The notes under the pieces are model-generated. The model saw nothing but the letters and a program-made list of their open reading frames with translations. It was not told the origin of the DNA and did no database searches. Position numbers and translations under genes: made by a program. From Pasteuria penetrans (lineage in GTDB: Bacteria; Bacillota; Bacilli; Thermoactinomycetales; Thermoactinomycetaceae), in NCBI RefSeq assembly GCF_900538055.1, contig NZ_UZAC03000001.1, forward strand, positions 1,302,001 to 1,366,000: 64,000 bases of DNA, read 5' to 3'. The stretch's first letter is position 1, and each line of letters opens with the position of its first letter. This document shows, piece by piece, positions 1,857-48,006 of the stretch.

Positions 1857-2876
1857 CTAATCCCCCTCATGTAATACCGAACCAAAGGATTCGATTCCCA
1901 TCGACCTCTGCATACGGTGCAGAGTTTGCCCAGCCACCTCACGAGCCTTTGCACTACCCCGTTGTAGGTAGCGAACCACATCATCCCCCTCTATCAGATC
2001 AGCATAGGATTCACGAATCGGTTCGAGAGCCCCACAAACAACCTCAACCAATTCCCCCTTGAAAACTCCATATCCCTTGTCCGCATACAACCTCTCCAGA
2101 TCATCCATGGAAACTCCACTCAACAGATGATGAATCATTAGCAGGTTACTGATCCCTGGCTTGTTAGCCACATCATAACGAACCGTACCCTCCATATCCG
2201 TAACCGCCTTCTTAATCTTTCGAGCCACCTTGTCAGGGGAGTCCAACAAATACAAACAACCCGAGGGGTCTCCGCTTTTGCTCATCTTCTGCCGCGGATT
2301 ATCCAGGGACATCACACGCGCCGCCTGCGGATGTACCAAAGACTTCGGTATCTTGAAAATACCCTCCCCGTACCAATGGTGGAATTTGTTCGCCAGCGTA
2401 CGCATCAGCTCTAGATGTTGCAGCTGGTCCTCACCCACCGGAACAAAATCCGCCTGGTACAGTAAAACATCCGCTGCTTGTAACACAGGATATGTATACA
2501 AACCTACTTTAACAGAGCCTTCGTACGCAGTACCCTGCTTCTGTTTGAATTGCGTCATACGCCGCAATTCACCCATGGGCGCTACACACTGCAAAAGCCA
2601 AGCGGCTTCACTATGGGCAGGAACAGCCGATTGGACGAAAATCGTTACCTTCTGTGGATCCAAGCCCGCCGCAAGGTACAAGCGGACCACCTCTAACACA
2701 GATCTCCGTAGAACCGCGGGATCCCGCACCGTCGTCAACGCATGGAGATCGGCAACAAAGAAAAAAATCGTAGCAGAACGGGATTGCCATTCTAGCATAG
2801 GGCGGATGGCACCGAGATAATTCCCTAAATGCAAACTACCACTCGCCTGAATACCTGTTATCACGATTGCTGACAC
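1857..2876 (-). CDS. trpS: Tryptophan--tRNA ligase
   Basis: Class I aminoacyl-tRNA synthetase that charges tRNA-Trp with tryptophan in the cytoplasm. The 339-residue protein has the usual length for bacterial TrpRS. The HIGH-type signature is GSLHLGNYLG (about residues 13-22) and the KMSKS loop is exact at 197-201 (QKMSKSGDPSG). The YPVLQAADVLLY and VPVGEDQLQHLE blocks that bind Trp and ATP are intact. Translation probably starts at GTG 2876, with AAGGGTGAG seven bases upstream. It lies 47 bp downstream of a TrpRS-like paralogue on the same strand, so the two may be cotranscribed. I saw no T-box specifier leader in the 4010-4240 spacer. Confidence 0.97.
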   Translation of the reverse strand: MSAIVITGIQASGSLHLGNYLGAIRPMLEWQSRSATIFFFVADLHALTTVRDPAVLRRSVLEVVRLYLAAGLDPQKVTIFVQSAVPAHSEAAWLLQCVAPMGELRRMTQFKQKQGTAYEGSVKVGLYTYPVLQAADVLLYQADFVPVGEDQLQHLELMRTLANKFHHWYGEGIFKIPKSLVHPQAARVMSLDNPRQKMSKSGDPSGCLYLLDSPDKVARKIKKAVTDMEGTVRYDVANKPGISNLLMIHHLLSGVSMDDLERLYADKGYGVFKGELVEVVCGALEPIRESYADLIEGDDVVRYLQRGSAKAREVAGQTLHRMQRSMGIESFGSVLHEGD

Positions 2877-2923
2877 GACAAACTCACCCTTCCCTAACCC
2901 GCCAATAGAACCCCCTCCATGGA

Positions 2924-3985
2924 CTATCCCCTGCCTAACACCTCACGCATTTTCTGACAAGTCAGGCCAGCAAACGAGCGAGCCTTCTGCGCGCCCTTCC
3001 TCAATTCAGCGGCAATTGCCCCCTTTGTAACCGCTTCCTTGTAGTTACGTTGCACAGGACGCAATAGAATATAGGCCATCTCCTTCGCCGCCTTCTTAAA
3101 ATCATCATGGTCCATACCGGAGAACAGTCTACCTGTCATGTAAGGATAGGAAAAACCTGTAGCCCAACGACAGAGTGTCAACAAATTACTGATCACGGGC
3201 TTTTCACGTGGATCATAAACAATGCCACCACTTTCTAACGCTAGCTTGCGAAACTTCCTCGCCGTAGACGCTAGAGGATCCAGCAGGTAAATACAACCCC
3301 CCGGCCCCGTATCCCCCATCGCCCGATGCGGATCATCAAGGGCACGCAGAGGTTCCAACTCCACGGGGTGTAGAATTTCCGGTATCCTAAAAACGGACTC
3401 CCCCGTATGTAAACCGTGGAAACGTTCCCCCAATGCTGATGTCCACTCGGACAACGCTACCTCGGATCTCGGCAATATCATGGCATCCATTGGGTAGGCA
3501 AGACATTGCGCAGCCTGAAGAACGGGATAACGGGGAAAGGGAATGACACTACTGGACACGGAACCCGGGGATCCTGACCCCCTCCCCAATGTACGCAGGG
3601 ATTTCCAGTCCCCCTTTTGGATCAAACATTCCAAAACACCCGCTATCTCCATGGCTTCAGGAACATCGGACTCTAAGAACATGAAAAAATTTTCCTCACG
3701 ATTCACCCCAAGTGCCAAATACACACCGGCCAATCCATAGGCATACTCCCGAACCAGCTCCCGATCGGGAACTACAGATAAAGCCTCACAATCCTGTATG
3801 CAGAGAAAAAACGTATCTGTATTATGAAACCAGCTAAGACCGGCGGGACGAATGAAACTTACATAATCATATAAGTTCAGCTTTCGATCCGGCTTGACAA
3901 ACATCAACATCGTATCGATTTCTTCTATAGCACGCGTCGGCTTATTTGATGATTTCGCATAGGACAACCCCACCTCGAGTGCCAT
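2924..3985 (-). CDS. TrpRS-like paralogue lacking catalytic motifs
   Basis: An intact frame of about 353 residues aligns along its whole length with the neighbouring TrpRS. Shared blocks include YPVLQAA, GCIYLLDPLASTARK (paralogue GCLYLLDSPDKVARK), KPVISNLLTLC, and the C-terminal KGAQKARSFAGLTCQKM. The catalytic signatures are gone. The HIGH-type LHLGNY is replaced by LNLYDY, KMSKSGD by RAMGDTG, and VGEDQLQH by a SEVALSE-like stretch. It should therefore not adenylate tryptophan. ATG 3985 is preferred over TTG 4009 because GGGGGG lies about 12 bases upstream. Preservation of a full-length frame in a pseudogene-rich region suggests a retained non-synthetase role (RNA or amino-acid binding, or a regulatory partner of TrpRS), but that is inference. 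Confidence 0.85.
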   Translation of the reverse strand: MALEVGLSYAKSSNKPTRAIEEIDTMLMFVKPDRKLNLYDYVSFIRPAGLSWFHNTDTFFLCIQDCEALSVVPDRELVREYAYGLAGVYLALGVNREENFFMFLESDVPEAMEIAGVLECLIQKGDWKSLRTLGRGSGSPGSVSSSVIPFPRYPVLQAAQCLAYPMDAMILPRSEVALSEWTSALGERFHGLHTGESVFRIPEILHPVELEPLRALDDPHRAMGDTGPGGCIYLLDPLASTARKFRKLALESGGIVYDPREKPVISNLLTLCRWATGFSYPYMTGRLFSGMDHDDFKKAAKEMAYILLRPVQRNYKEAVTKGAIAAELRKGAQKARSFAGLTCQKMREVLGRG

Positions 3986-4256
3986 GATAGACAATCCCCC
4001 CGTCCACAATTCCCTAGGCCCCGATAAAAAACAGCAGAAATCTCCCGTGGGTGATCGCCGAACGATCCAAAAACATGTTCTACATCCTGGTTCACAATTC
4101 TAGCAGATTCAAACAGATCATAGCAAATGAGCCCCATCCCCACCCAAATCCCACGGAAAAGCATCCCCCAACAACCCACATCGGTTGCACCCCTTTACCC
4201 ACATGAGATAAAATGCGGGGGGATGAATCCTTGATCGGAGGAGGGTGTACCGAGTC

Positions 4257-4792: not shown

Positions 4793-4820
4793 AGCAACCC
4801 CCCATCCGGGGTTGTTTTTT
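4793..4820 (+). terminator. Rho-independent terminator of ccdC
   Basis: An inverted repeat CAACCCC/GGGGTTG with a short loop is followed by six T residues, starting eight bases after the ccdC stop codon. Confidence 0.9.
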
Positions 4821-5170
4821 CTGCACCAATCCATCCCCCTGAAGGAGCAAACTGAATCCAAACATCCTGCATCCCTCTCTACCGTTTCAGAAACAAATCC
4901 CCCCTACCATACACAGAAACATCCCGGATTATCGCACTTGAAGATGAACCAACCATCGGTACGAAATAGCCCCACCCAGCATAATACCTACTAATCTGCA
5001 CCAATCCATCCCCCTGAGGGAGCAAACTGAATCCAAACATCCTGCATCCCTCTCTACCGTTTCAGAAACAAATCCCCCCTACCATACACAGAAACATCCC
5101 GGATTATCGCACTTGAAGATGAACCAACCATCGGTACGAAATAGCCCCACCCAGCATAATACCTACTAAT
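4821..5170. repeat. 175-bp tandem duplication
   Basis: Bases 4821-4995 and 4996-5170 are head-to-tail copies of one 175-bp unit, identical apart from a single A/G difference (about 4842 versus 5017). The second copy contains the last 22 codons and stop of the minus-strand membrane protein gene that ends at 5104. The first copy carries a detached duplicate of that gene tail. Near-identity points to a recent event. Confidence 0.95.
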
Positions 5171-6742: not shown

Positions 6743-7084
6743 CTTCCCCCCCCTATGGGAGCAACGTAACCCCTATAGATCAAGAAAACTACCTTATGAA
6801 CACAATGGAGGGGGAAGATGGGAATCAAAAACCCTTTTCTCCCTCCCAATCCCACGACATCACGATCTTGGGGAGGAAAATTACACCCACCCGAATGATA
6901 GCATAAATATCCCCCCCTGAACCCCCACATTTTCATCATAGACGAAAGTACGAGTCTCGTCTGTGAATCCCGGTTTGTTATCACCATCGATATCCTCGAA
7001 CTTGAAAGGTCGTGCACCAAGCTAGGTGCAGAAAGGATAAAGGAGCAGGCCCTTTCGAACCGATCGATGGGTATAGGTTCCAAA
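6743..7084. other. Gap upstream of holA, no recognisable gene
   Basis: The frame at 6649-7083 on the minus strand overlaps holA and has no credible composition or start. The segment runs into a group II intron remnant at about 7085. I see no promoter I would defend. Confidence 0.4.
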
Positions 7085-7740
7085 CCGCTCTAGCGCGGCT
7101 CATGGTAAGAGCATAGGTCGTGAGCGGCTAGGGAAAAGGCGGAGCATGACTCCGTCCGGTGAGTGTTGAGAAGGTGAGCGCGAGCGAACCGGCCGAGGAC
7201 GCATCGAAACGAGCAATTTATGTCGAAACCATAGGGTAAAGATCTCTACCCCGGGGCCAAGCTAAGGAAGACGACCTATCTACTGTCCTAGCGGCATGCG
7301 GTGCACAGGACATACAATCCGAAGCGAAGAAATGATCGTGGGTTAGACCCGATGGGTCTAACTGGACGCACAATCTGAGATAAGGAGATGATCGCAAGTT
7401 GGACCAGGCAACATTGGATCGAAACCCGGTAGGACACGGCAGAGGAAGGTACGGAGAACGTAACACCAGACTGGGGTTCTAAATGGGCAAAATTCTATGG
7501 GACCATAGGAGCCACATAATGCGAGAATAGTACGTGTGGTTCTGTGAAAGGGTTGACTGAGATGCCAGCCTTACTCGACGTGAGAGGCTTGGTTCGAAAT
7601 ACCGTGTCTACTCGACATAGCACCACACAAACGCCTTGGCAACGACCCAGGCGTAATAAAAAAAGCCAAAGACAACGGAAGAAACCCAGTGCACGGAGTC
7701 GGATCGTCCCATAGTATCGATGAAACCCTTTTGTAACGAT
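7085..7740 (+). mobile_element. Rearranged group II intron RNA remnant
   Basis: This stretch has no reverse transcriptase frame but keeps intron RNA blocks shared with 44790-45725 and 50020-50312 (both inverted). The 5'-type block covers 7085-7300 and includes the sequence around GAGGACGCATCGAAACG. A domain V hairpin covers 7509-7545, starting GAGCCACATAATGCG and closing with GTGTGGTTC; it retains the AGC triad and is followed by a domain VI-like segment to about 7600. An upstream-type block (7600-7735) then follows domain V, out of order relative to the copy at 44790-45725. The element is therefore rearranged or two nested fragments. Boundaries are approximate. Confidence 0.7.
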
Positions 7741-21165: not shown

Positions 21166-22551
21166 TTATCGCTCAACAACACCATGTTTGGGAACTGACA
21201 ATTGCCAGGCATAACGAAAATCCCTCTTTTCATCCCAAGAGATCCCTGCATCCAAGAAATCGTAGAGGGCCTCCACATCCTTAGCATGCCGCGCATAACC
21301 TGGCAAAATTTGCAGATCCCCCCATAACTTTGGCAACCACATACGCAGTGGACTCTTATCGCCGGTATAATAGGCGCGTTGAATCTCGGGATCGCGCAGG
21401 GGTTCCAGGGAGAGAAGGTGAGCGCAACGAATCACAAGCGCGGCAACCGCTAGCACACCCTTTGTCAAAATGGGCGAAATCAGCCAGCTGGGTAACGTTC
21501 GATATTCAAAACCCCCATGATTTTTCTCACGAAAATCTCCTAGGAAACCGTACTTGGGACGGCGGGTACAACCACGTTCATCCTCTGCCAGTACCAACGG
21601 AAGAGCCAAATAATTATCCAATGCCCGTAGGATGGGAAACGTAGGCTTCAACCCCCCAAAATGCACATGCCCCCCCAACGACAATCCAGCATGGGGCATA
21701 GCACCAGCTAGCCAGCGCGCGGCAATACCCTGCATACGCCGATTAGCCTGCAACAAACTACGTCGTAACTCCAAAAAAAGGGCATGGGGTGTAGCCTGTG
21801 GGGGTGGACGGAGTTCGACAATCGGTTTGTTATTCCTACCCGTTCCCACTCGAATGGCATCACAACCGATTCGACCTTGCATAGGAAAATAATGTGAAGC
21901 CACCAACAAACGTCCCTGTGGGGACTGCATTACAAATTCCGGATCCGCTCCCAAGGAAAGCCTATGATGAACCCAGGGAGCTTCCCCCAACCACCGATAG
22001 TATCCCGACAAAGCCCGTGCAAACATCCGTGCCAAATCACGATGGCAGCGCGGACTTGAAAGCACATGCAAAACCACAATCCGGCGACCTGTACCCACGC
22101 CACAGCGTACCACACCATAATCCAGTCCCAATGCATAGAGAGAACGCACAGCTAGTGTTCGCACACGTTGCAATTCCCTATCCGTTTCATGGTCAGGAAC
22201 ACGCCGAAACTCCGGCCGCTGCACAGATCGTGGTTTAGCCAACCAAGCTGGTGCGTGTACGGAACGGTATATGCGTAGTACTTTGGTTTGGAACACACCC
22301 ACCCAATATACGCGCAGCAGCCGCATCTCCGGCGCAGTGGCCACGCCATGGAGCCGCAACCACTCCTCTTGTTGGACTTCGGGTCGTGCCATAGTAGAAC
22401 GCTCTGGTGCGTTGAGGGTACGCCATAACACATTACCTTTTGGAATCCCTAATTGAATCGATTCTGGCAATCGACCACGAATGAGGATTTGATCTGTCAA
22501 AACTTCCTCGTCCAACCAAGGTGCCTCGCCGGAAAGAGTGAGGGTTCCCAT
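21166..22551 (-). CDS. Putative amidoligase (COOH-NH2 ligase type 2)
   Basis: The 461-residue protein carries in its second half the pattern of the phage PhiEco32-like amidoligase family: LGADPEFVM, GRIGCDAIRVG, ELRPPPQATPHALFLELRR and LSLGGHVHFGG. These are expected to form an ATP-grasp/glutamine-synthetase-like site joining carboxyl and amino groups. The first 200 residues resemble no family I can name. Start is ATG 22551, with GAGGGGG seven bases upstream. It follows cotE by 97 bp on the same strand. The family occurs in spore-forming Bacillales, so a role in spore-surface or peptide cross-linking is plausible but inferred. Confidence 0.8.
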   Translation of the reverse strand: MGTLTLSGEAPWLDEEVLTDQILIRGRLPESIQLGIPKGNVLWRTLNAPERSTMARPEVQQEEWLRLHGVATAPEMRLLRVYWVGVFQTKVLRIYRSVHAPAWLAKPRSVQRPEFRRVPDHETDRELQRVRTLAVRSLYALGLDYGVVRCGVGTGRRIVVLHVLSSPRCHRDLARMFARALSGYYRWLGEAPWVHHRLSLGADPEFVMQSPQGRLLVASHYFPMQGRIGCDAIRVGTGRNNKPIVELRPPPQATPHALFLELRRSLLQANRRMQGIAARWLAGAMPHAGLSLGGHVHFGGLKPTFPILRALDNYLALPLVLAEDERGCTRRPKYGFLGDFREKNHGGFEYRTLPSWLISPILTKGVLAVAALVIRCAHLLSLEPLRDPEIQRAYYTGDKSPLRMWLPKLWGDLQILPGYARHAKDVEALYDFLDAGISWDEKRDFRYAWQLSVPKHGVVER

Positions 22552-25456: not shown

Positions 25457-27016
25457 GTGATAGGAAAATTGACTCGGTGGTTACCACAAAAGGGAATGAA
25501 GACGTTGCAAATTTGCTTGGGATGCATAAGTATTGGCATTTGGGCGGGCACCGAATACAACCCCTATTTATGGAATCACACGCATGCCCATAACGTCCAC
25601 AGTGGTGGGGAATGGACCCCTGCAAGGCCTGTCTACGAAATTACTGGTACCTATGAGCCAAAACAACGCGATCTAAAAGGTCACATGCAACTCCATGTAC
25701 CAGAAAATCTCCCCGAGGCCCAAGGGAATTCCGTCTTTCTACACCTCTATCCTAATGCATTTCATCATTGGAAACATGAAAAATTCATACGACCCGTGAA
25801 ACCCGGTTTCTTGATCCCCTACAATGTAAAAATCAACGGGCAAAATGCTGTTACAGAACTACATCATAATAAAACAATCCTGCAAATCCACCTGCCACGG
25901 CAAACAAAGGAAACCACATTGAATATAGAAATGGATTACCACCTCCGCATCCCGGAAGGGGGACTACGGTTGAGCCAGGAGGGGAAAACCGCCTTCCTAG
26001 CTCAATGGTATCCTATGCTAGCTGTCCATGATCAAAATCGTTGGCACCTGAATCCTTATACCACTATAGGGGAACCCTTCTACACCCGAGCAGCTGATTA
26101 CCATGTCTCCCTCGAAACCCCCCCCGGGTACCGTATCATTTCCACTGGTAGGAATCCGGAACCTAGTAAAAACACAGCACGGATTTCATCCCACCAAACA
26201 CGTGATTTTACAGCAATGATCACTTCAGAATACCAGGCACTCACTAGTCAAGAGGATGGTGTATATATCCATCTATGGTACCGACCCGAGGATCGAGAAC
26301 TAGCACAATCATTGCAACATACCGCTGTCTCCAGCTTACGTTTCTTCAGCGAAAAATTCGGGGCATACCGTGACGAAATAACCGATGAACTGGACATCGT
26401 GTTTGATTCATCGAAGATCAACCCCGGCAACATGGGGGGTATGGAATATCCCGGGTTAATCACCATCCAAACCCGAGGCATATCACGGATGAGAAGAGAG
26501 ATTCCCATACCCGATAACGCAATAAAAACCCCATTGGCTCACGAAATAGCCCACCAGTGGTGGTATGGATTTGTGGGCAATAACCAAGCACAAGAAGCAT
26601 GGCTCGATGAGGGATTAACCACCTTTTCTGAAATCCTCTACATGGAGAACGTGGAGGGGGAAACCCATCTAGACGATTTACGGAAAATCGTCTCCAGCTC
26701 TGATAAAAGCGAAATCGGCAAGAAGGAAACACTCACTGGAGATCCGCATTCCAAAGAATCCTATGGCATCATGGCCTATGCAAGGCCCGCAGCCATGATG
26801 TTCGATTTGGCTACTGAAGTGGGGAATATGGACGAATTATTGGCAATCTTAAATAAATACCACAATCAATATCGCTATAAGATTGCAACAGGCTGCGAAT
26901 TCATACGATTTGTGGAATCACAATCTAGAAAAAATTTGAGATATTTTTTCTATAAATGGTTGTACCGTTTGCCAGATGATTGTCTATCGGAGAACGAAAA
27001 ACCAGTAACAAAATAG
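25457..27016 (+). CDS. Exported M1-family zinc metallopeptidase, copy 1
   Basis: Gluzincin peptidase of the aminopeptidase N/ERAP type. The 519-residue protein starts with a signal or anchor segment (MKTLQICLGCISIGIWAG) and then the M1 beta domain with FLHLYPNAFHHW and FLAQWYPMLAV. The exopeptidase-type substrate motif appears as MGGMEYPGL, and the zinc site HEIAHQWW..18..DEG is complete (His362, Glu363, His366, Glu385). The chain stops soon after the catalytic domain, so it is shorter than typical aminopeptidase N. Start is taken as GTG 25457; inner starts are possible. A diverged duplicate begins at 27908 on the same strand. Confidence 0.9.
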   Translation: MIGKLTRWLPQKGMKTLQICLGCISIGIWAGTEYNPYLWNHTHAHNVHSGGEWTPARPVYEITGTYEPKQRDLKGHMQLHVPENLPEAQGNSVFLHLYPNAFHHWKHEKFIRPVKPGFLIPYNVKINGQNAVTELHHNKTILQIHLPRQTKETTLNIEMDYHLRIPEGGLRLSQEGKTAFLAQWYPMLAVHDQNRWHLNPYTTIGEPFYTRAADYHVSLETPPGYRIISTGRNPEPSKNTARISSHQTRDFTAMITSEYQALTSQEDGVYIHLWYRPEDRELAQSLQHTAVSSLRFFSEKFGAYRDEITDELDIVFDSSKINPGNMGGMEYPGLITIQTRGISRMRREIPIPDNAIKTPLAHEIAHQWWYGFVGNNQAQEAWLDEGLTTFSEILYMENVEGETHLDDLRKIVSSSDKSEIGKKETLTGDPHSKESYGIMAYARPAAMMFDLATEVGNMDELLAILNKYHNQYRYKIATGCEFIRFVESQSRKNLRYFFYKWLYRLPDDCLSENEKPVTK

Positions 27017-27907
27017 AGGAAAATTAGGTTGCTGGGAACAGCAGATCATCTAGCAATTTATGTGACCCTTCCCCCATGAAGCCGCGGCGTATCCGGTGAA
27101 CCAATCCAACGCCGCGGAAACAACGCAAACAGTGGACCATCGATATCGCGGTTAAGGCCAACTCCCCCCATCCACCAGGTCATTATGGCTATAGCAGAGG
27201 GAATATGAACTTTCCGATGCTCTCTGACTCACTATGGGAAGTCAATGGACGGGTTGTTTACCCCCATAAGACTTCCCGCTATCATAATAGATTTTTCTCT
27301 CTGAAATGTTGTTTTTTTCCTAGTAATGTTGTACCATGGATGTGAGTGCTTAGGGTTTCCCCCTTCTGGTTTTATTGTTTTGTGCCAATCAATGGGCACA
27401 GGGTCAAAAGTCCCCCGCAGGGCTCTTAAGTCTTCGGGAACTATCTTGTATTTTTTTAATAGAATATATTTATTTATTAATGAGAATACCCATTGCATGT
27501 ATTTGTTAGTAAATAGTATGTTCTGATTGTACGATAGCAGGTACGAAAACTGGAGTGGGCGTGTATAAACGATCGGCCGGTACTATCTCATACTTTTGAC
27601 CCTACACCCAATATCCTACCAGGGATAGGGGGCATAGGCCATCATCCCCTTTCTACATACCGTAGCGGTAATTTTCACTCCTAATTCGTTGTAAATAGTG
27701 TGACAGTATTCTATTTTTTATCCGATAGCTCGGTTCATGGTCATCAAACAGGGTTCAGCGTGCCTATACTATGGACAGGTATTTTCACTAATAAAATGTT
27801 ATTATATTACTAGTTTATTTTACCAAAAGGTGTAACTAGGTTCATAACAGTGGGAACATTCCCCACAGAAAATTGCACGATCCCAACATACGAGGAAGAG
27901 AAATAGG
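27017..27907. other. 890-bp spacer between the two aminopeptidases
   Basis: The first 150 bp after the stop resemble the sequence after the second copy, showing that the duplicated unit included 3' DNA. Bases 27232-27350 match 57780-57895 in inverted orientation, and 27480-27610 resembles 53130-53270. No gene was recognised. Confidence 0.5.
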
Positions 27908-29464
27908 ATGACATACGTAATGAGAAAATTGGTTCGATGGTTACCACAACAGAAAAGAAAGATGTTGCAGATTTGCTTAGGATTCGTAGGTATTAGCATT
28001 TGGACAAGCATCGAATACAACCCTTGTTTCTGGAATTACGCCCATGCCCATGATATCCACAGTGGTGGGGAATGGACCCCCGCAAGACCTATCTATAAAA
28101 TTACCGGTACCTATAAGCCAAAGCAACGTAGTCTAAAAGGTCATATGCAGCTCTATGTATCGGCAAATCTCCCCGAGGCCCAAGGGGATTCCATATTTCT
28201 ACATCTCTACCCTAATGCATTTCATCATTGGAAACATGAAAAATCCTTTCGACCTGCAAAACCCGGTTTCTTGATCCCCCACAACGTGAAAATCAACGGG
28301 CAGAATGCTGTTACAGAACTACATCATGATAAAACAATCCTGCAAATCCACCTGCCACAGCAAGTAAAGGGAACCACATTGGACATAGAAATGGATTATC
28401 ACCTCCGCATTCCTAAGGGAGGCATACGGTTGAGCCAGGAGGGGAAAACCGCCTTCTTAGCCCAATGGTACCCTATGCTAGCTGTTCGTGATCAAAAGGG
28501 TTGGCACCTAAATCCCTACACCCCTACGAGTGAACCTTTCTACACCCGAGCAGCTGATTACCATGTCTCCTTCGAGGTTCCCCCTGGATACCGTGTCATT
28601 TCCACTGGTAGGAATCCAGAACCTATGAAAAACACAGCACAGATCTCATCCCACCAAACACGTGATTTTACAGCAATGATCACTTCAGAGTACCAGGCAC
28701 TCACCGTTCAAGAGGATGGCGTACACATCCATCTGTGGCACCGACCCAAAGATCGGAAACTAGCACAATCATCGCAACATACTGCTGTTTCCAGCTTGCG
28801 TTTCTTTAGCGAAAAATTCGGAGCATACCGTGACGAAATAACCGATGAACTGGACATCGTGCTTGATTCATCAAAAACCAATCCTAGCAACATGGGGGGT
28901 ATGGAATACCCGGGATTAGTCACCATCTCCACCCAGAGCACACAAAGGACTCCCGCATCCCATAATAGCACAACAATAAAGGACACATTGACCCACGAGA
29001 TAGCCCACCAGTGGTGGTATGGATTTGTAGGCAATAATCAAGCGCGAGAAGCATGGCTCGATGAGGGATTGACCACATTTTCCCATAACCTCTACATGAA
29101 GAACGTGGAAGGGGAAGACCGTATACTAGACGGTTTAAGGAAATCTGTCTCCGAAGCCGATAAAAACGGAATCGGCAAAAAGGAAGCACTCGCCGGGAAT
29201 CCCCCCTCCAAAGAATCCTACATCACTATGGCCTATGCAAGACCCGCGGCCATGATGTTCGATTTGGCTACTGAAGTGGGTGGTATGGATGAATTATTGG
29301 GGATATTGAAAAAATACCACACTCAATATCGCTACAAGATTGCAACGAGCTGCGACTTCATTCGATTTGTGGAATCCCAATCCGGAAAAGATTTGAGATA
29401 TTTTTTCAAGAAATGGTTGTACCGTTTGCCCGAGGATTGTCCATCAGGTAACGAAAACCAGTAA
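27908..29464 (+). CDS. Exported M1-family zinc metallopeptidase, copy 2
   Basis: Tandem paralogue of the gene at 25457, nearly identical in length (518 residues) and aligned throughout. The signal segment (MLQICLGFVGISIW), the MGGMEYPGL motif and the zinc site HEIAHQWWYGFVGNNQ..DEGLTTF are retained, so it should be active. Differences concentrate just before the zinc motif (a Ser/Thr-rich TQSTQRTPASHNSTT loop) and in the 20 residues after the catalytic Glu, hinting at altered specificity. ATG 27908 has GAGGAAGAG eight bases upstream. Confidence 0.9.
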   Translation: MTYVMRKLVRWLPQQKRKMLQICLGFVGISIWTSIEYNPCFWNYAHAHDIHSGGEWTPARPIYKITGTYKPKQRSLKGHMQLYVSANLPEAQGDSIFLHLYPNAFHHWKHEKSFRPAKPGFLIPHNVKINGQNAVTELHHDKTILQIHLPQQVKGTTLDIEMDYHLRIPKGGIRLSQEGKTAFLAQWYPMLAVRDQKGWHLNPYTPTSEPFYTRAADYHVSFEVPPGYRVISTGRNPEPMKNTAQISSHQTRDFTAMITSEYQALTVQEDGVHIHLWHRPKDRKLAQSSQHTAVSSLRFFSEKFGAYRDEITDELDIVLDSSKTNPSNMGGMEYPGLVTISTQSTQRTPASHNSTTIKDTLTHEIAHQWWYGFVGNNQAREAWLDEGLTTFSHNLYMKNVEGEDRILDGLRKSVSEADKNGIGKKEALAGNPPSKESYITMAYARPAAMMFDLATEVGGMDELLGILKKYHTQYRYKIATSCDFIRFVESQSGKDLRYFFKKWLYRLPEDCPSGNENQ

Positions 29465-30500: not shown

Positions 30501-31718
30501 ATGAAACAAATTAAAATAACAAATTTCTTTCATCCCATACTCCTCATTACGAGTCTCACCGCACTCACATTCCCTGCCCTCTCCCTATCAACCAACGCCC
30601 AACCCAATAATCTAAACTCTAAGGGAGAGAGCGAAGACAAACAAACCAAGAATCCTTCATCATCACACGACGAACAAAACAGGAAAAATACCATACCAAC
30701 AAAGACAAACAGTCCGTCAGAGAAACAATCCGGGGAAGAAGGATGCAGCAGACTTTCGGAAACGGACCACTGGAAACCCATACCCACAAAATCTATAGAC
30801 GATAAATTAAAGGATAAAATAATGAAAAGTGGTTACGAACTAGCAGAATGCTCCTATCAACTCAAGGGAGGACACACCATAGACGTTCGGGTCAAAGAAC
30901 CCAGCGGTAAAACTACTATGATTCGTTCCTCGGATGGGAAAAATTTGGACGATGAACAAGGGGACAACAAAAGGGAACAATCCGATCTTGATTCTAATAA
31001 ATCTCATCAAGAAGAAATCCATGAGACAAAATCAAAACCCGACACCACCCCCACAAGGGAAAAACGCGACAAACACAGTACCCCCCAAAGCCCGGTGAAG
31101 GAACCACAGGAAAAAAATGTAACCAACAACCCCTCCACCAGCAACCCTACTGAGACAAGTACAGACCCATCAACCCCACCACCCAACCATAATAACATCA
31201 AAACCGATGCCGACTCCCCCACCAGCAACCACGCTGGGACAAGTACAGACCCGTCAGCCCCACCCAACGATACCAAAACAAATGAAACGGCCCCATCACA
31301 AAATATACAGGCTATTCTGAATCGCATCAATGAATTCCGTCGTGAAAACGGATCGGGTCCCATCACATTGGATTCCACCTATACAGAAAAAGCAAACGAA
31401 AAAGCTAAGACCATAGTCAAGAGAAGGGCGAGCGCCACAAATCACAGCATACATGATGTGCCCCCCAGTAATAGCCAACCCATGGGATTTCCCACAAGTG
31501 CTGAATGTGTTGGTCAGGACGGGGATGCTGGTAAAGGAAGTCTAGAAATAATGCTCGCGGAGAAGGATCCAGGACCTGGATATCTCAATCACATGACTGT
31601 TCTCAAAGATAAGGACGCCACAAAGATGGGGATTGGCCTCATCCACAGCGAAAATATGCCCCCTTACCGGGGGTGGACACTCGTAATTGAAAGCAATGGG
31701 GATGGCATCTTACCCTAG
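30501..31718 (+). CDS. Exported protein with divergent CAP-like C-terminal domain, copy 1
   Basis: The 405-residue protein has a Sec signal peptide (HPILLITSLTALTFPALSLSTNAQ), a long low-complexity region rich in Ser, Pro, Thr, Asn and Lys (about 30-265), and a C-terminal domain (about 270-405). That domain resembles the CAP/SCP fold: ILNRINEFRRENG, TLDSTYTEKANEKAKTIV, and LNHMTVLKDKDATKMGIGLI, which parallels the family HNAxML..Y...GIG ending. Two ~20-residue stretches ending STDPS.PP repeat in the linker. GGAGG lies eight bases before ATG 30501. It is likely a secreted or surface protein; the role is unknown. Confidence 0.75.
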   Translation: MKQIKITNFFHPILLITSLTALTFPALSLSTNAQPNNLNSKGESEDKQTKNPSSSHDEQNRKNTIPTKTNSPSEKQSGEEGCSRLSETDHWKPIPTKSIDDKLKDKIMKSGYELAECSYQLKGGHTIDVRVKEPSGKTTMIRSSDGKNLDDEQGDNKREQSDLDSNKSHQEEIHETKSKPDTTPTREKRDKHSTPQSPVKEPQEKNVTNNPSTSNPTETSTDPSTPPPNHNNIKTDADSPTSNHAGTSTDPSAPPNDTKTNETAPSQNIQAILNRINEFRRENGSGPITLDSTYTEKANEKAKTIVKRRASATNHSIHDVPPSNSQPMGFPTSAECVGQDGDAGKGSLEIMLAEKDPGPGYLNHMTVLKDKDATKMGIGLIHSENMPPYRGWTLVIESNGDGILP

Positions 31719-31782
31719 AAAACTGTATAAAAAATCAACCACGGGATCAAAATACCCGGGGCGGAAAAAAAACCATATCCGG

Positions 31783-31817
31783 GACCAACACACACTCTAC
31801 CAAGGTGTGTGTTGGTC
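31783..31817 (+). terminator. Hairpin after CAP-like gene 1
   Basis: GACCAACACACAC pairs with GTGTGTGTTGGTC across a 9-base loop. There is no T-run, so it may be a processing or stability element. A sequence-related hairpin follows the paralogue. Confidence 0.6.
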
Positions 31818-32695
31818 TTATGAGCACCTATCCGACCGAAACTCTGTCGGAAAATAAAAAAACTATCAAATGGCAATAAATGAAACAATAAGAAAAAATA
31901 TATTATTTATAAAAATAAAATTATACTGTATAATATAAATACCCATACGATCCGCACGATGATTTGTAATACAAACCCATGGGGGACAACAGATTACCCT
32001 TCCATCCCATCCTATGGCCTCAAAAAAACCAACTCTGGAGAAATAAGGATGTGATACCAATCTATATATATCATCGATCCCATCCCCGGTTGGCTGGGGG
32101 GTGAACAGAAAATCCGGTTGGTCCATTTGGGGGGCTAAAAATCTTGGGATATCGGATCAAAGATATGGATCATACTGATCCAGTCCTCTAGACACGACCC
32201 CTTCAGTTTTTGTATTTTCTATCAAAAAATAATATTTACCAACCAATACATGCGATAGGTGCTTTTATTTAATATATACACGTATTCAATAAAAAAATTG
32301 GATCGGTTCCCCGTGATTGAAGAACCCTACTATAGACTTTAGACCACTTTACACTCTTGATACAGGGGAATCTCCACCTACAATGGATCAGAAATAGAAC
32401 AAAGCCAGATATACCCAATGGAAACTATTCAGATCCCCAAAACAGGTGAAAGATTAATATTGAATATAATTATTTATAAATAAAATTAACTTACACTAAG
32501 AAACAATCACGTAGCAGAGGTTTTGTGTTATAAGCGGTGTTTTAGTCATGAAGGGGCCTACGATATCCCTCTACTTCATATCGAGAGGAAAAACCACTCA
32601 CTACAGAAAAAAGGAAATTACATGCCTAAGGATAAACACAGGTCGAAAAAAATGAACGCCCCCCCAATCAAAACCCACAAGAAAGGAGTTATACT
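31818..32695. other. Spacer before the second CAP-like gene
   Basis: AT-rich DNA with the leader repeat at 31880-31955 and no recognised gene. The open frame at 31866-32126 on the minus strand has no supporting feature. Confidence 0.4.
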
Positions 32696-33583
32696 ATGAA
32701 ATGGATCAGAAAAAAAACCTTCCCCCACCCTATACTCTTTATCACAAGTCTCGGCGCACTCACACTCCCTGCTCTACCACTCAACGCACAACCCGACCAA
32801 AGTACACCATCAACGGATTGCCAATCCCAATCCTGTTCTAACGTACCACCCTCCCCGGACATGGGGTACCGGGAAGCGACGACCGGGAACGATAAGAACC
32901 ATACGAATTGGGGGTTGCAAGAGGGCAACAAAGAATGGCGATCTGATCTTGACCCCATCGAAAAACCTACCTATGAAGAGGAAGAAGACTCCATCCCTGA
33001 AATGATTGGGAAAGAATCAAAAAAAATAATCGAAAAATTAAAAAAATTCCTGGAAATTGAATCATCTGAAGAAAAAAATATAACCGATACCCCCACCAAC
33101 AACCATATTGAAACAAATACAGACCCATCCAACCATGATACCAAAACAGATGGAACGGCCTCATCACAAAATGTACAGGCTATTCTGGATCGCATCAACA
33201 AATTCCGACGTGAGAACGGATCGGATCCTGTCACGTTGGATCCCACCTATACAAAAAAAGCAAACGAAAAAGCCAAGACCATAGTCAAGAGGGGAGTGGA
33301 CATCGGGAAATTAGGACCTGCCGTACACAATCTGCCCCCCAGTAATAGCCAACCCATGGGATTCCCCCCAAGTTCTGAATGTGTTGGTCAAGACCAGGAT
33401 GCCGGTAAAACAAGTCTAGAAAAGATGCTCAAAGAAAGGGATCCAGGACCTAAAGGGATCAATCACATGACTATTCTCAAGGATAGGGATGCCGCAAAAG
33501 TAGGAATTGGTCTCATCAAAGACACCTCCTCTAATGAATGGACCACCGTCATTGAAACCAATGGGAATGGTTCATTACCCTAA
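32696..33583 (+). CDS. Exported protein with divergent CAP-like C-terminal domain, copy 2
   Basis: The 295-residue paralogue of the gene at 30501 shares its signal peptide (HPILFITSLGALTLPALPLNAQP) and C-terminal CAP-like domain (ILDRINKFRRENGSDPVTLDPTYTKKANEKAKTIVKRG, INHMTILKDRDAAKVGIGLI). The low-complexity linker is shorter by over 100 residues and differs in composition, with an acidic EEEEDS stretch and KKIIEKLKKFLEIE. Conserved single Cys in SSECVGQD is shared. AAGGAG lies eight bases before ATG 32696. Confidence 0.75.
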   Translation: MKWIRKKTFPHPILFITSLGALTLPALPLNAQPDQSTPSTDCQSQSCSNVPPSPDMGYREATTGNDKNHTNWGLQEGNKEWRSDLDPIEKPTYEEEEDSIPEMIGKESKKIIEKLKKFLEIESSEEKNITDTPTNNHIETNTDPSNHDTKTDGTASSQNVQAILDRINKFRRENGSDPVTLDPTYTKKANEKAKTIVKRGVDIGKLGPAVHNLPPSNSQPMGFPPSSECVGQDQDAGKTSLEKMLKERDPGPKGINHMTILKDRDAAKVGIGLIKDTSSNEWTTVIETNGNGSLP

Positions 33584-34364: not shown

Positions 34365-35240
34365 CTATAGCAATCCATGTACCCCAATTTTTACCACAAT
34401 CAAGATCACCACACCGGCCATCGCCAATGGAAGAAATTCAAGAAAGGTACATGTGGTTCTCCCCCCCGTCCTAATACTGTAGTGATCCACTTTTCCAAAA
34501 CAACCGTAAGAATTGATGGATTTCCATAAGGATCGATCCCTGGAGGAACCCGTTCGTTGACCGAGAAGCAATTGCAACCAAGAAGGAAACACAGAAACGG
34601 AGTAGTAGGATATAAAAACAATAGCAAAATAATCCTTACTATGATCCACTACGGAAAAATGAACCCATCCATAAAACAGGAGCAAGGGTATGGGGTAGAA
34701 GAAAAGAAACTGGCTAATCCGACGATGGACGAAATTACGATCGATTTCCCCTGATTCTGCACACCAACGCTCCTCCCGTAGTGTCTGCCACTTGAAAACA
34801 GCACACCAGAGGATCATGCCTACCACCAGACCCACCGGTAGGAGGTCAATACCAAAGGACACACCTATAGAGAGCAGAAAAAACAGGACCCCCATCCAGG
34901 GCACGGCATACCAACGCCAACCCGCAATACCTCTCTGTTTCGCCAACCGATAGCAGGTTTTTCGGTAACGGGAGAGCTCCCTAAACTGCCTGTCGATGAA
35001 CCCTAGATGATGCCGCCAATCCCTTTTCCCCCCGGCGTTGGGAAAAACAGTTAGCGAATTCAAATAGGCGAGGAAAGTAAATGCAAAAAAGATGATAGGA
35101 AAAAAAGTATCATCATGAACACTACGAAGATGGAGAAACATCACCCCCGACAACAATGCATGCAAACAAAAGCTAACAGAGAAAAACTTCCATATAGAGG
35201 ACATGACCCCCCGCGATAACCGCCGCACCACACCTACCAC
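34365..35240 (-). CDS. Polytopic membrane protein, tandem paralogue A
   Basis: The 291-residue protein has six or seven hydrophobic segments. It shares with the upstream neighbour (35244-36131) a central cytoplasmic block, IAGWRW, followed by spans, an REERW/CEERW..G..DR.FVHRR block, an SVFP.W..LLLGQRT block, and a terminal span. The family is unknown to me. It starts at about 35240 (GTG or a nearby start) only a few bases after the stop of its paralogue. The pair may form a heteromeric membrane complex; that is inference. Confidence 0.7.
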   Translation of the reverse strand: MVGVVRRLSRGVMSSIWKFFSVSFCLHALLSGVMFLHLRSVHDDTFFPIIFFAFTFLAYLNSLTVFPNAGGKRDWRHHLGFIDRQFRELSRYRKTCYRLAKQRGIAGWRWYAVPWMGVLFFLLSIGVSFGIDLLPVGLVVGMILWCAVFKWQTLREERWCAESGEIDRNFVHRRISQFLFFYPIPLLLFYGWVHFSVVDHSKDYFAIVFISYYSVSVFPSWLQLLLGQRTGSSRDRSLWKSINSYGCFGKVDHYSIRTGGRTTCTFLEFLPLAMAGVVILIVVKIGVHGLL

Positions 35241-35243
35241 CCC

Positions 35244-36131
35244 TCATTCCCTTCCTATCCCAAACCTTATGTAAATGAGGAAACGAGCTAGAAAAAATAA
35301 CAATACAAAGGCCCCGAAAATTATGAAAAAAACTACTAGGGGAAGAGGAACCCCGCCCGATGATCTCACATAATCCCCAAACCCCACCTCTCCATCCCGT
35401 TCCACCACCAAATGACCATAGGGATGCCAGGGTTTCCAGGGGGAAAAATGGGGTGGAGCGGTCCTCTGCCCAAGCAAAAGGTGTCCCCACATAGGAAAAA
35501 CGGAGAAGGAATAGAAAAATAGAACCCCTATAACAAACCATCCTTGGTAACGGGTACCCATCACTAGCCTCCACAAAGGAAAGGCTAACAATGGTAAACT
35601 ATAAGAAAGTACCACCTGTAACAATCGACGATGGACAAAACTACGATCCACAGTCCCCTCCCCATGGCCCCATCTCTCTTCGCACCGTATTTTCCAACCA
35701 AAAATTGCGATCCAACCCAAGAAACCCAGGGTGGAAATCCAGGCCGACCACCAGGATGATCGCCATTCCGAGGCCGGATACAGGGAAACAACAGACATCA
35801 TCACACCCAGATAGGACAAACCATGCCAACGCCAGCCTGCAATCCCTTGGACACGTGCCTGTATACGTAACTCACGCCTTTGTTGACGGAGTTGCACCCA
35901 TTGTTGATGAACCCACCGCAGGCGATCCCATATCCTACGTTTTCCCCCATAGGGACAATAGGGGAGGGAACACAGGGAAATAATATAAAAAATAGTATAT
36001 AATGAATAAATAATAATAAAATTATCATAGGAAGAGGGGGCAATAAAATACCAATAGGCATGCCAAAACATCAGACTATGAAACAACCAACCCAGTACAA
36101 TGAGCCCTATCATAACACCCTCCACCCCCAA
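35244..36131 (-). CDS. Polytopic membrane protein, tandem paralogue B
   Basis: The 295-residue membrane protein is homologous to the gene immediately downstream. Common landmarks are GIAGWRWHGLSYLGVM, IRCEERWGHGEGTVDRSFVHRR and YSFSVFPMWGHLLLGQRTA. A Gln/Arg-rich helix (WVHQQWVQLRQQRRELRIQ) precedes the IAGWRW block, matching RQFRELSRYRKTCYRL in the paralogue. No catalytic motif was seen. It is divergent from the CAP gene at 36441. Confidence 0.7.
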   Translation of the reverse strand: MGVEGVMIGLIVLGWLFHSLMFWHAYWYFIAPSSYDNFIIIYSLYTIFYIISLCSLPYCPYGGKRRIWDRLRWVHQQWVQLRQQRRELRIQARVQGIAGWRWHGLSYLGVMMSVVSLYPASEWRSSWWSAWISTLGFLGWIAIFGWKIRCEERWGHGEGTVDRSFVHRRLLQVVLSYSLPLLAFPLWRLVMGTRYQGWFVIGVLFFYSFSVFPMWGHLLLGQRTAPPHFSPWKPWHPYGHLVVERDGEVGFGDYVRSSGGVPLPLVVFFIIFGAFVLLFFLARFLIYIRFGIGRE

Positions 36132-43719: not shown

Positions 43720-44789
43720 TCTCGTTTCCGTAGGCAACGGGGGAAAAGAAGCGGGATAGGGGAACCCTGTCGCCATTACATTATGCCAATACCATTACAC
43801 ACCATGATACAGGATTTCGGAATGAAAGGCCTGCCGGAAGAAAAAGGAATGACAACGAATTCATTCCACCCCGTGTCAACCTATCCGCCTCTGCTTCCCA
43901 TTCATCGGGGGTATTACCATTGGATTGCAGAGCACACAAGATCCAGATAGGGTACCGAAATTTCCGAGAGAAAAATCCCAAGATACTGGACCAATGGTTC
44001 TCCCTCAGAAGACAATGTCAAAACTCACTTCCTTAGAATATTTTGTAATAACAGAAAATTTATTATAAAAATTTTCATTATTATATAATATAAAAAATCT
44101 ATACCGTTGCCATCATATCAATAATTTGTAGTTAAAAAGTACCACTTTAGGGAAAAGTACACGCAGAAGTTTATTACCAACAATTGTTTTTTGTTGAACA
44201 CCCAAAATCGCTGAAGGATAAGGATCGCTGGTTCCCATTTTACCCCCTTTGCACACTCCAGATGAATCGAATTTATGTTGATCCTTAATTTTTTTATTTA
44301 AAATTTTGTTGCATACTAAATTCTATGTAGGAAGTGGCGAACAACATAGAATATAAATTTTTATTTAAATAAATTTTATATAATTTACTTTTTATGATTA
44401 TTTATATTGCTTGTTTCCGTATACATGCAATTATGCACCCATAGAACGGGGGATTCATCCGCAATGTGTGCGCAGAATCCTTCCCCCTTCTTCATTAGGT
44501 TTGGCAACACATTACTCAGCGAAATTTACATCCCCCGTAGGTAGGTCCCCTCATGGAAGTGAGCCACCATCCTACCCCTACCACTCTACCCGGAGGTTGG
44601 TATACAGATGGGTCGAAGAACCTTGCCACCTGGGCACCGATTGATCCCTCTTCCATTCTCTTTCCTCCCTTGAACCAGCCTGCCCTTTTTTTACTGGAAT
44701 TTTTCCCTTCCCCCCATCCTATCGGTTGGGTGTATATCGATGATCCATTTCTTGGCTTACCTCCCCTTTACCTCATAGCAGTTGCCGAG
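43720..44789. other. 1.1-kb gap downstream in decayed region
   Basis: The upstream side of ftsY leads into AT-rich DNA with a third copy of the 290-bp repeat family at about 44120-44340. The small frames at 44411-44792 lack ribosome-binding sites. No gene was recognised. Confidence 0.45.
44120..44340. repeat. Third copy of the 290-bp repeat family
   Basis: Matches 7780-8055 and 8105-8405 in the same orientation, including TTTTTTGTTGAAC followed by CCAAAATCGCTG.. and the GCACAC..GAATCGAATTT end. It is more eroded than the other two. Confidence 0.6.
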
Positions 44790-45725
44790 TAGACCCGGCA
44801 TTTCAGCCAAGTCCCTCACGCCCAGTAGGGCTGGCATCTCAGCCAACCCTCTCACAGAACCACACGTACTACTCTCGCATTATGTGGCTCTTATGATCCC
44901 ATAGGATTTTCCCCATTTAAAACACCAGTCTGGTGTCACGTTCTTCGTACCTTCCTCTGCTGTGTTCTATACGGGTTTCGATCCCATGTTGCCTGGTCCA
45001 ACTTGCGATCATCTCCTTATCGCAGATTGTGCGTCCAGTTAGACCCATCGGGCCTAACCCACGATCATCTCCTTGCTTCGGATTGTACGTTGGCTGGTCA
45101 GGCAGACCATTCAACCCCTTCGCTCCACCCTCATTACAAGGGTTTCTTCACTACTATGAGTTGATCCGACTCTGTTCGCGGAAGCCTTGGTATACCCTTA
45201 GCCCTTTACACCTGGCCTTAGCCAGGTGTCCGTGCGACAGTCTCTCGTGGTTCCCTATGAGGGCCTAAATATGGTTCGCTTTACTAATCTCCCTGATTCA
45301 CACCGGACAGGGGCATGCCGCTCACAACCAGGGCACTTTACCCCAACAGCACTAGGCAGTTTGTAACCTGCTACCTATCAGCCGGTTACAAAGAGTCGAG
45401 CAACCTTCATCTCCTGAACGACCTCTTGACACACGTACACGCCATCGAAATGCAAGATCCCGTCACCCTCCCTAGTGCATGGTTGGAGATAGGATCAACC
45501 CCAAAACCCTTATCGGAACGAGGTGTCCCCCGGGTGTTCGCATGAATGGATCCTATTCCCATGGTCCTATGAGGGGACGACGCCCCCATTCTGGATAGTT
45601 CGCCCTCTTCCTGTTGGGAATGGTGGGAACCAACGACAAGGCAATGAGCTATGAGATGGATCCTGCTTCGCACCGCCATGGGGCCACTGGTAAGGTATTG
45701 GACTACTATGGAACAAACCCCGAGG
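44790..45725 (-). mobile_element. Reverse-transcriptase-less group II intron copy
   Basis: Reading the minus strand from 45725 to 44790, blocks occur in the order expected of an intron deleted for its protein: a 5' segment, ACTCATAGTAGTGAAGAAACCC and GGTGGAGCGAAGGGG (typical leader of intron maturases), then domain V at 44850-44892 (GAGCCACATAATGCG ... GTACGTGTGGTTC). Domain VI-like repeats ending CTACTGGGC and CTACTCGGC follow. The domain V stem and its AGC triad are intact. It ends close to the CPBP gene at 45732. Exact ends are uncertain, and splicing would need a maturase supplied from elsewhere. Confidence 0.72.
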
Positions 45726-45731
45726 GTTGAA

Positions 45732-46802
45732 CTACCCCGCTCGCTTGGAAAAAAATATCAAGATAGATAGAAAAACATTGAAAAAAGCATGGGCCCACAT
45801 AGACAACCACAAAGAATACCGACGTGCTATCCACCCGAATAGTAAAGATGTCGTGAAAACCCCCAAGAGCCCAAACCAATCATATCCATTCAAAACATGA
45901 ATCAGGGTGAATGCAATACTAGAGATAAAAATTCCTACGCGTGGTTGGAGAGCCCCCCGAAACAATAGCTCCTCACCAACACCCGCACATATCCCCATAA
46001 GAGGAACTATAATCCAAGCCAATGGGGGAACAACCGGATCCGTTTGTTGTATCAGCGAAACACCCCATTGATTTCCTATTGAAATAACAAACGACGCTAC
46101 CTGTCCGAGCACGAAAAAGAAAGCAACAACAAGAAGAGGAATCAGAAGAAATTCCTTCCACGTTGGCCTCCTATTCAGCCCCAACCGCTCCCACACCTCG
46201 CACCAACTCCGATGGGTACCCCATCCCACAACCAACAGGGCCAGGACACTATTCAGGAGCAAACTTACAATCAACTCCTGAGCGAACTCATGTGGGGGGA
46301 TCTTATCGAGATACCCCATAAAGTCTGGAATGCTCAGAAAAGACCAAATAAACATAGCCCCCAGGAGGAGAAAAAGGAGCCCCCAAAACGCAAAACAATG
46401 GGCATATCGCTGCGGATCCAAATTCAGCTTTGACATCATATAGGCACGAAATCTTGGCCATACAAAGGAAATACATATCAAGGACAGGGAAAGAACACAA
46501 CCCAATAAGGCCAACCATTTGAATATCGATTCATCCCAAACACGCTCGAATATCCCCACTATAAATGTGGAATCAATCGCAGTAACAGAAAACCTAATAG
46601 GCTGCAAAAACACGCGGAAAAACATGATAAAAAACGCTAATGGGAGCAAAACATCAACTACCCTACCCCAATTTCGCAACGTCCCCCGGCGCAAACTGTT
46701 TTCTAGTACCACCATATGCTGATAGTGGGCATGATCAAATTTCATCAGGACCCACACGAACAGGAGTAGGAATACCACTAATAAAAAATATTGCATAACC
46801 AC
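45732..46802 (-). CDS. CPBP family intramembrane metalloprotease, copy 1
   Basis: The 356-residue membrane protein has about eight spans and the three CPBP (CAAX protease/bacteriocin-processing) motifs in the C-terminal third: GVGEELLFRG (Glu-Glu-x3-Arg), FTLIHVL (F-x3-His) and MWAHAFFNV (His-x3-Asn). Substrate unknown; members process proteins at the membrane and some give bacteriocin self-immunity. The start is GTG or ATG at 46802 or a few codons later. A near-duplicate at 48007-49083 lies on the same strand, with IS relics between. Confidence 0.88.
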   Translation of the reverse strand: MVMQYFLLVVFLLLFVWVLMKFDHAHYQHMVVLENSLRRGTLRNWGRVVDVLLPLAFFIMFFRVFLQPIRFSVTAIDSTFIVGIFERVWDESIFKWLALLGCVLSLSLICISFVWPRFRAYMMSKLNLDPQRYAHCFAFWGLLFLLLGAMFIWSFLSIPDFMGYLDKIPPHEFAQELIVSLLLNSVLALLVVGWGTHRSWCEVWERLGLNRRPTWKEFLLIPLLVVAFFFVLGQVASFVISIGNQWGVSLIQQTDPVVPPLAWIIVPLMGICAGVGEELLFRGALQPRVGIFISSIAFTLIHVLNGYDWFGLLGVFTTSLLFGWIARRYSLWLSMWAHAFFNVFLSILIFFSKRAG

Positions 46803-46904
46803 AAAATTCCCCTTTTTATCTTCCGTAAATGAACAAATTCGATCAAATTAGGAAGACTAAATAGTATCTACTTACATAAATTTACTTTTATCGATAATTG
46901 TACC

Positions 46905-47195
46905 ATAGATGGTGCTAGTGCGGGAAGTAAAAGTTAGTTGAAAATTTAGTTGATTTGGTTTTTTCCAATACTAATTATATTTCAAAATAGGATATATTGA
47001 ATTGCTAACAGGTAATGAATTACTCCTGTATAATATGTATAGATAATTTGTAATGTAAATAAAAAATGAATAGTATGAATTTTTCGATTATGATATATAT
47101 TACTCACTATATCGCATACCTCCTTCTTATTATTATAAATTTTACTATATATTCGGGGACTTGATATGTGTTATACGCTACACACTTTGCAACCA
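46905..47195 (-). repeat. Inverted copy of the DNA at 61955-62220
   Basis: The two segments match as reverse complements, for example TTAATTATATTTCAAAATA.GATATATTGA and the TTTTACTATATATTCGG..GTGTTATACGC end. The partner lies just 3' of the broken IS1182-like transposase, so this is probably an IS end. Confidence 0.75.
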
Positions 47196-47207
47196 TTGTG
47201 ACTCTCG

Positions 47208-47556
47208 GCCAAACTTCGAACCTGAAATATCCTTGGATGGTTTTTTCCTAATTCTGGATTGTAAGGATGAGTTAGGTGGGAGGCCCGGGTTCCCCAAATC
47301 CTCACAGGAACACCTGATTACCGGGAATGGACGGTTGGCAATGGACTCTAGGATATAACTCATTTTATATCTAATTTTGTGGTTCCTAATTTCCCTATTT
47401 TCATGATTTTCACTTCGTCCAAAAAAGGGGACCTCGGGAAATTTAATTCTGTTTTCATATCGAAAACCCCTTATTCCCTGATAGAGGGTGAGTTGCCCAT
47501 CCCCACTCCCGAAACTGAACCCTCAGGTCCGATATGCGGCCAAGGTCCAACCTTTT
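47208..47556 (+). repeat. Direct copy of the DNA at 62318-62665
   Basis: About 350 bp align without large gaps from GGCCAAACTTCG to GGTCCGATATGCGGCCAAG, with scattered substitutions. Beyond the right end this copy continues into an integrase fragment, and the other copy does not. Confidence 0.85.
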
Positions 47557-47959
47557 TAACCGCACCAGCACCATTGATGATTTAAAAAGGCTTTTGGACG
47601 GTAAAGAATTGGAAATCAGTCGATTGAGGGAAAGGACAGGGGGAAAGCGGGACCCTACTATGGTTCAAATTTTGGGCATAATCGATGTTTTTGACAGGGT
47701 TACTGTTTTCTCCCAAGTCTACTTATCCTGTAAATCCAAGGACGTTGTGAAAGCAATACAGGAGGCTTTGAAAAAGCACGTGGGAAAAGGGGGGAAAAAT
47801 CCCATGATTCGAACAGACAATGGTTCGCAATTTGTCAGTCACGAGTTTCACAAATTCATGGAAACCACTGGAATCTACCACGAACGGATACCCAACCATA
47901 ATGCGCACATCAAGTCTTATCATAAGTATTGTGAAAAGCAATTTTTTGGACAGGTTTGA
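47534..47959 (+). pseudogene. IS3-type transposase (integrase core) fragment
   Basis: The 141-residue open frame contains the rve core: GIIDVFDRVTVFSQVYLSCKS (first catalytic Asp in IIDVFDR), KNPMIRTDNGSQFVSHEFHKFMETTGIYHERIPNHNAH (second Asp in RTDNGSQF) and a terminal IKSYHKYCEKQF, where the catalytic Glu region (normally N.H.ES.H) is degraded to NAHIKSYH. The N-terminus and the end of the core are missing, so it is inactive. Confidence 0.85.
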
Positions 47960-48006
47960 GTTCCGCAATTTTTTGGACTGCCATGGAACAAACCCCAAGG
48001 ATTGAA

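Follow-up and report, generated by a model that had tools for sequence, protein, structure and literature searches.

The nematode parasite Pasteuria penetrans very probably retains, immediately upstream of its tryptophanyl-tRNA synthetase (TrpRS) gene trpS, a second TrpRS-like gene, P1, whose product is a pseudoenzyme. Both genes lie in the window analysed here, a 64,000-nucleotide stretch of contig NZ_UZAC03000001.1 of assembly GCF_900538055.1 (positions 1,302,001 to 1,366,000; Table 1). We propose that P1 may be the product of a duplicated trpS that has been kept as a translated, TrpRS-folded protein, is probably encoded in a transcription unit shared with the active trpS, and, being non-catalytic, may partner the active TrpRS. 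Taken as a whole, this explanation, in which a TrpRS pseudoenzyme is both maintained as a protein and serves as a non-catalytic partner of trpS, is our best one and is offered tentatively.

Table 1. Features of the P1–trpS region, with positions counted from the first letter of the window.
Feature	Position	Strand
P1, putative gene of a TrpRS-like pseudoenzyme (353 aa; starts with ATG, stops with TAG)	2924..3985	-
trpS (P2), active-looking tryptophanyl-tRNA synthetase, 339 aa, GTG start, signatures kept	1857..2876	-
Former HIGH signature of P1, NLYD in place of the HLGN/TIGN type	3866..3877	-
Gln where the Trp indole is normally read by Asp (E. coli D135; D132 in Bacillus-type numbers)	3506..3508	-
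Former GEDQ motif of P1, PRSE	3461..3472	-
Former KMSKS signature of P1, AMGDT	3308..3322	-
N-terminal extension of P1, 25 residues ahead of the usual TrpRS start; residues 1-18 have pLDDT <50 in the model	3911..3985	-
Shine-Dalgarno-like GGGGGGATT, 7 nt ahead of the P1 ATG at 3985	3993..4001	-
Gap between P1 and trpS, 47 nt, bearing the trpS Shine-Dalgarno-like site	2877..2923	-

The coordinates and strand given for P1 by a sequence-only reading are exact, as is its statement that the frame is uninterrupted. The frame runs from the ATG at 3985 to a TAG ending at 2924 with zero internal stops, so that the broken frame expected of a pseudogene is absent from all 353 codons. Among seven candidate starts, ATG 3985 has the best Shine-Dalgarno-like site, GGGGGGATT, whose duplex energy of -11.1 kcal/mol compares with a 5% quantile of -10.4 for 500 random places, on a scale where some of the listed genes that are certainly real have weak sites, as low as 0.0. 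P1 and trpS share a strand, and the end of P1 lies 47 nt upstream of trpS, with no terminator-like site found in that gap; on the other side, 259 nt separate the P1 ATG from a divergent CcdC-like gene. Promoter-like sites between 1600 and 4400 number 5, against 3.3 (sd 1.9) in shuffled sequence, and we therefore claim no promoter. Searches with P1 turned up no additional domain or family and no match to defence families; a weak TetR_C_9 match (E 0.022, under cut-off) was taken as chance.

Sequence comparison establishes P1 as a homologue of TrpRS proteins at large, with similarity that exceeds chance. Residues 30-351 of its 353 align to residues 9-327 of the 339 in trpS with 31% identity (E 6e-45), which bears out the earlier claim of an end-to-end alignment with the adjacent TrpRS, save for the N-terminal extension of about 25 residues in P1. 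The best solved TrpRS chain matches P1 at E 1e-29. P1 belongs by descent to the TrpRS/TyrRS superfamily (class Ic fold), scoring 34.9 bits against PF00579 with a cut-off of 21.1; its score against the NCBIfam equivalog TIGR00233 (89 bits, E 3e-25) falls below the 176.75 cut-off. A model of P1 built from a multiple alignment (pLDDT 74.6, pTM 0.74) superposes on TrpRS 1d2r with Z 34.4 and rmsd 2.2 over 320 residues, the alignment consisting of 10 sequences, nine of them signature-bearing TrpRS, and hence biasing the model toward the TrpRS fold. Modelling from the single sequence, without an alignment, fails (pLDDT 34.3), and the fold of P1 is therefore assigned through homology.

Conservation is uneven along the protein. 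P1 averages 0.26 identity to the TrpRS rows over its catalytic part; relative to expectations extrapolated from there, the mean is 0.273 versus 0.242 in the dimer-forming CP1 (residual sd 0.037) and 0.27 versus 0.17 in the C-terminal helical domain, with the last segment at 0.32 in P1 and 0.35 in trpS. By this measure the helical end is better kept than expected, while the dimer-forming CP1 is not.

The changes in P1 extend to both class I signatures, whose replacement had been recognised from the letters and is confirmed here. No HIGH-type signature is found, HLGN having become NLYD (with G17 changed to Y and N18 to D), and KMSKS has become AMGDT. The Trp/ATP pocket has likewise been rewritten as claimed: GEDQ is PRSE, D132 is Gln and K111 is Gly. 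In the comparison set of 70 other TrpRS rows (37 + 33), each letter of KMSKS, and the Asp that reads the Trp indole, is present in 70 of 70. Columns that are at least 95% conserved number 67, of which trpS keeps 63 and P1 27. Within these we defined a functional set, combining sites given in two E. coli TrpRS papers (PMC10201369, PMC12135181) with a list of HIGH, KMSKS and ATP-site positions. P1 keeps 4 of its 26 columns versus 23 of the 41 other conserved columns (Fisher p = 0.001), a contrast that depends on our choice of set and on a hand-made renumbering. In Bacillus-type numbers, the positions lost in P1 are G7, G17, N18, H43, W91, R104, K111, D132, V141, G144, D146, Q147, Q149, R155, K192, S194, K195, S196, T222, D223 (to Glu), Y265 and G266; those kept among the functional columns are L128, E152, M193 and K269. 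Contacts to tRNA are retained at 1 of 6 positions for the acceptor arm and 2 of 6 for the anticodon. Of seven dimer-pocket positions described in the literature, Ec92, 130 and 131 carry the commonest residue in P1; elsewhere in the pocket Trp93 (W in 68 of 70 others) is replaced by Gly and Ala89 by Met, and Ec127 is Pro.

Given these residues, charging of tRNA by the established route is not expected of P1. One might still imagine an active enzyme of altered chemistry, using another amino acid or nucleotide within a fold that the model suggests is likely kept. Since P1 has substitutions at HIGH, KMSKS, GEDQ and K111 alike, however, the known ATP-binding apparatus is absent from P1, and we regard such an enzyme as extremely improbable.

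By comparison, trpS retains every signature that P1 has lost, holding 26 of 26 functional-site columns and 37 of the 41 others. These two are the only trpS-like genes found in the genome (2,519,642 bases, 4 contigs). Apart from them PF00579 matches one more gene, which we take to encode TyrRS, and PF00133 gives six matches in four apparent genes; among the matches to these two families no second dead synthetase twin was noticed. At the anticodon-reading position equivalent to E. coli Ser227, trpS has Met (window 2193-2195, minus strand), where 63 of 70 other rows have Ser; P1 has Ser at this position, which lies outside the 26-column functional set.

Neither the order (41 other genomes) nor a sample of 298 other genomes from the phylum (E 1e-35) yielded an orthologue of P1. 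Scans of genome contigs and viral contigs with exact 8-residue patterns, which reach close relatives only, also returned none for P1; the genome-contig scan with trpS returned 8 loci from other groups, Bacillota included. Matches to P1 occur in 43 plasmid and 14 phage records, with a best identity of 30% among the best 10 of the 43 and likewise among the best 10 of the 14, and several of the matches listed are annotated trpS. The idea that the pair might be adjacent in relatives fared poorly: a second TrpRS-like frame of at least 200 aa is absent from the flanks of 37 loci (L003-L039), where these flanks span about 1.5 kb per side for L003-L031 (less at contig ends) and up to 8 kb for L032-L039. 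In the order, 40 of the 41 other genomes have one TrpRS match and G016 has two, on different contigs. Across 60 relatives, second matches were seen in G016, G044 (partial) and G051, and KMSKS is retained in those of G016 and G051.

In our view a duplicated trpS gave rise to P1. That the parent was this particular trpS has little support: in the tree P1 groups with trpS with support 32/65, on a saturated branch of about 10 changes per column, and rare residues shared with P1 show no excess (13 of 90 for trpS, 12 of 72 for L034). A one-residue loop insertion, unique to P1 and trpS against 37 rows, was considered as a synapomorphy of the two and set aside as only suggestive, a longer loop being present in 3 of 70 other rows. 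Seven neighbouring pairs of similar ORFs occur among the 44 ORFs of the window, among them P1/trpS and what we read as the ancient ffh/ftsY pair. Given the tandem position of the genes and these seven pairs, local duplication is the simplest history.

The five further pairs, whose family names come from scanning one member per pair, are M1-like peptidases (79% identical, 25457-29464), CAP-domain proteins (64%, 30501-33583), unnamed proteins (33%, 34365-36131), Rce1-like proteins (86%, 45732-49083) and Amidase_2 proteins (45%, 50856-56681). Elsewhere in the window, two 175-bp tandem copies, 99% identical, lie at 4820-5169 between the CcdC-like gene and the gene of an unnamed protein. Group II intron RNA matches number four, one on the plus and three on the minus strand (7041-7160, 44784-44892, 45287-45408 and 58431-58557). 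A strong match (305 bits) to PF14395, the phage COOH.NH2 ligase-type 2 family, is located at 21166-22551 on the minus strand of a contig that looks chromosomal, and collagen-like repeats were seen by eye at the left edge of the window and in its flank. Whether or not all of them are real genes, non-overlapping ORFs of at least 120 aa make up 60.7% of the window. Its GC content is 46%, the value given for P. penetrans in PMC13233619, which puts P. ramosa at about 31%.

Several properties of P1 indicate maintenance as a protein. When the trpS coding sequence, standing in for the ancestor, was drifted neutrally by substitutions only, with no indels, to about 33% identity, copies acquired a mean of 11.6 stops and 0 of 400 stayed stop-free; the corresponding counts were 0 of 400 at 54% identity and 2 of 400 at 66%. 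The 226 changed residue pairs between P1 and trpS are milder than drift predicts, with a BLOSUM62 mean of -0.36 versus -0.80 (sd 0.10) at that identity. The codon log-odds of P1, 0.094, sits among those of 12 window genes (0.062-0.140) and is negative in its five other frames. Identity between P1 and trpS is 0.45, 0.54 and 0.39 at the three codon positions, a pattern that agrees with a coding history but is partly owed to the trpS side. A simple relic was considered and rejected on the drift result, the gene-like codons and the good Shine-Dalgarno-like site. These measures of the coding sequence show that P1 has been a coding gene over a long history, and are no proof of selection today. The sequence-only reading had taken the open frame to imply selection for a function other than charging. 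A non-charging paralogue long held as a protein is well supported by the no-stop drift test, the mild changes, the gene-like codons and start, and the concentration of losses at functional columns; selection for another function is the part of that claim that we infer, and it concerns constraint in the past and probably today.

Alternatively, P1 could have been constrained for most of its history and recently have become relaxed or useless, its frame still open by chance. The very long, saturated branch would suit this history, as would the several diverged neighbour duplicates in the window. It is harder to reconcile with 353 codons free of stops and frameshifts, a good Shine-Dalgarno-like site, gene-like codons and losses that fall preferentially at functional sites, and we consider it quite unlikely.

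What, then, might P1 do? TrpRS is a homodimer with half-of-the-sites reactivity (PMC10201369) that binds tRNA across both subunits (PMC12135181). A single active site per dimer might therefore be enough, and an inactive subunit could stabilise the active TrpRS, tune it or position it, as SLIMP does for a mitochondrial SerRS. By this analogy, a role for P1 as non-catalytic partner of the active TrpRS is conceivable, if short of probable. Counting against it are the lost Trp93, a CP1 that has diverged ordinarily, tRNA contacts that have mostly gone and a trpS that is complete. With so few contacts left, P1 is unlikely to assist in holding tRNA across the two subunits; furthermore, trpS, complete at its functional columns, shows no reciprocal loss, and thus nothing points to a need for a partner. 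The stricter form of this proposal, a bacterial class Ic heterodimer of a catalytic and a dedicated dead subunit encoded in tandem, in which duplication has made half-of-the-sites behaviour permanent, is unlikely.

The same losses lend themselves to a different reading, namely that P1 is a free-standing pseudoenzyme that reuses the TrpRS fold apart from the active TrpRS, for a new ligand, RNA or protein partner. With substrate and tRNA sites rewritten and the Trp93 dimer contact gone, the old partnerships may have ended, and the extra 25-residue N-terminus would fit a separate role. A gap of 47 nt directly upstream of trpS nevertheless suggests a shared unit and role, and the failure to detect any additional domain or family in P1 gives the free-standing reading little to build on; we judge it rather unlikely.

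P1 might also regulate trpS or tryptophan supply, as successor to a lost T-box control. T-boxes number 10-21 per genome in 20 of 20 relatives searched, and a T-box leader precedes trpS at 17 of the 20 relative loci searched with Rfam (drawn from the 29 loci L003-L031), where P. penetrans has P1 instead. Among 79 candidates scored in its genome none qualified as a T-box RNA even at E 10, and no leader was found ahead of P1 and trpS. However, the absence is genome-wide and not specific to trpS, the link to P1 is only positional, and P1 has no detected DNA- or RNA-binding domain; a regulatory role is therefore very unlikely. The RNase P RNA of this genome (L074, G000:C1:832225-832650) scores 41.1 bits, under the cut-off of 97, which indicates that RNAs here are divergent and that a very divergent T-box could be missed.

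Returning to the proposed partnership of P1 and trpS, comparisons can be drawn with other synthetases, among them SerRS, a class II enzyme. The insect mitochondrial SLIMP/SerRS2 alpha heterodimer (PMC10817482, PMC9437257) resembles the P1 case in joining a paralogue with a defunct site to an active paralogue of the same organism. It differs in being a eukaryotic SerRS whose partnering has been shown, whereas that of P1 is proposed, and in that its active SerRS has lost the tRNA-binding domain, whereas trpS has kept its functional columns. Duplicated ThrRSs also heterodimerise (PMC4787780). TrpRS and TyrRS together make up subclass Ic (PMC10201369), and the trypanosomatid TyrRS pseudo-dimer, like the P1 pair as we picture it, has one inactive half; there the halves are fused in one chain, whereas P1 and trpS are two genes (PMC9437257). 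HisZ is, like P1, a bacterial synthetase paralogue without adenylation activity, but it acts on HisG in histidine synthesis (PMC9437257), and the named neighbours of P1 (trpS, the CcdC-like gene and a DNA polymerase III delta gene) include no amino-acid biosynthesis gene. The auxiliary TrpRS II and the indolmycin-resistant TrpRS1 are likewise second, distant TrpRS genes in bacteria; unlike P1, which lacks the charging signatures, they charge tRNA (PMC9437257). For TrpRS the table of that review gives charging paralogues only, and none of the titles and abstract openings listed by our searches, in a literature with no preprints and few subscription journals, described a catalytically dead TrpRS paralogue from a bacterium.

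Dead synthetase paralogues are already known as a kind, and P1 would add a TrpRS case to these synthetase-derived pseudoenzymes. A tandem pair with one dead member would allow a genetic test of the one-site-at-a-time asymmetry of TrpRS. More generally, P1 would show a specialised parasite building a new protein from an essential one.
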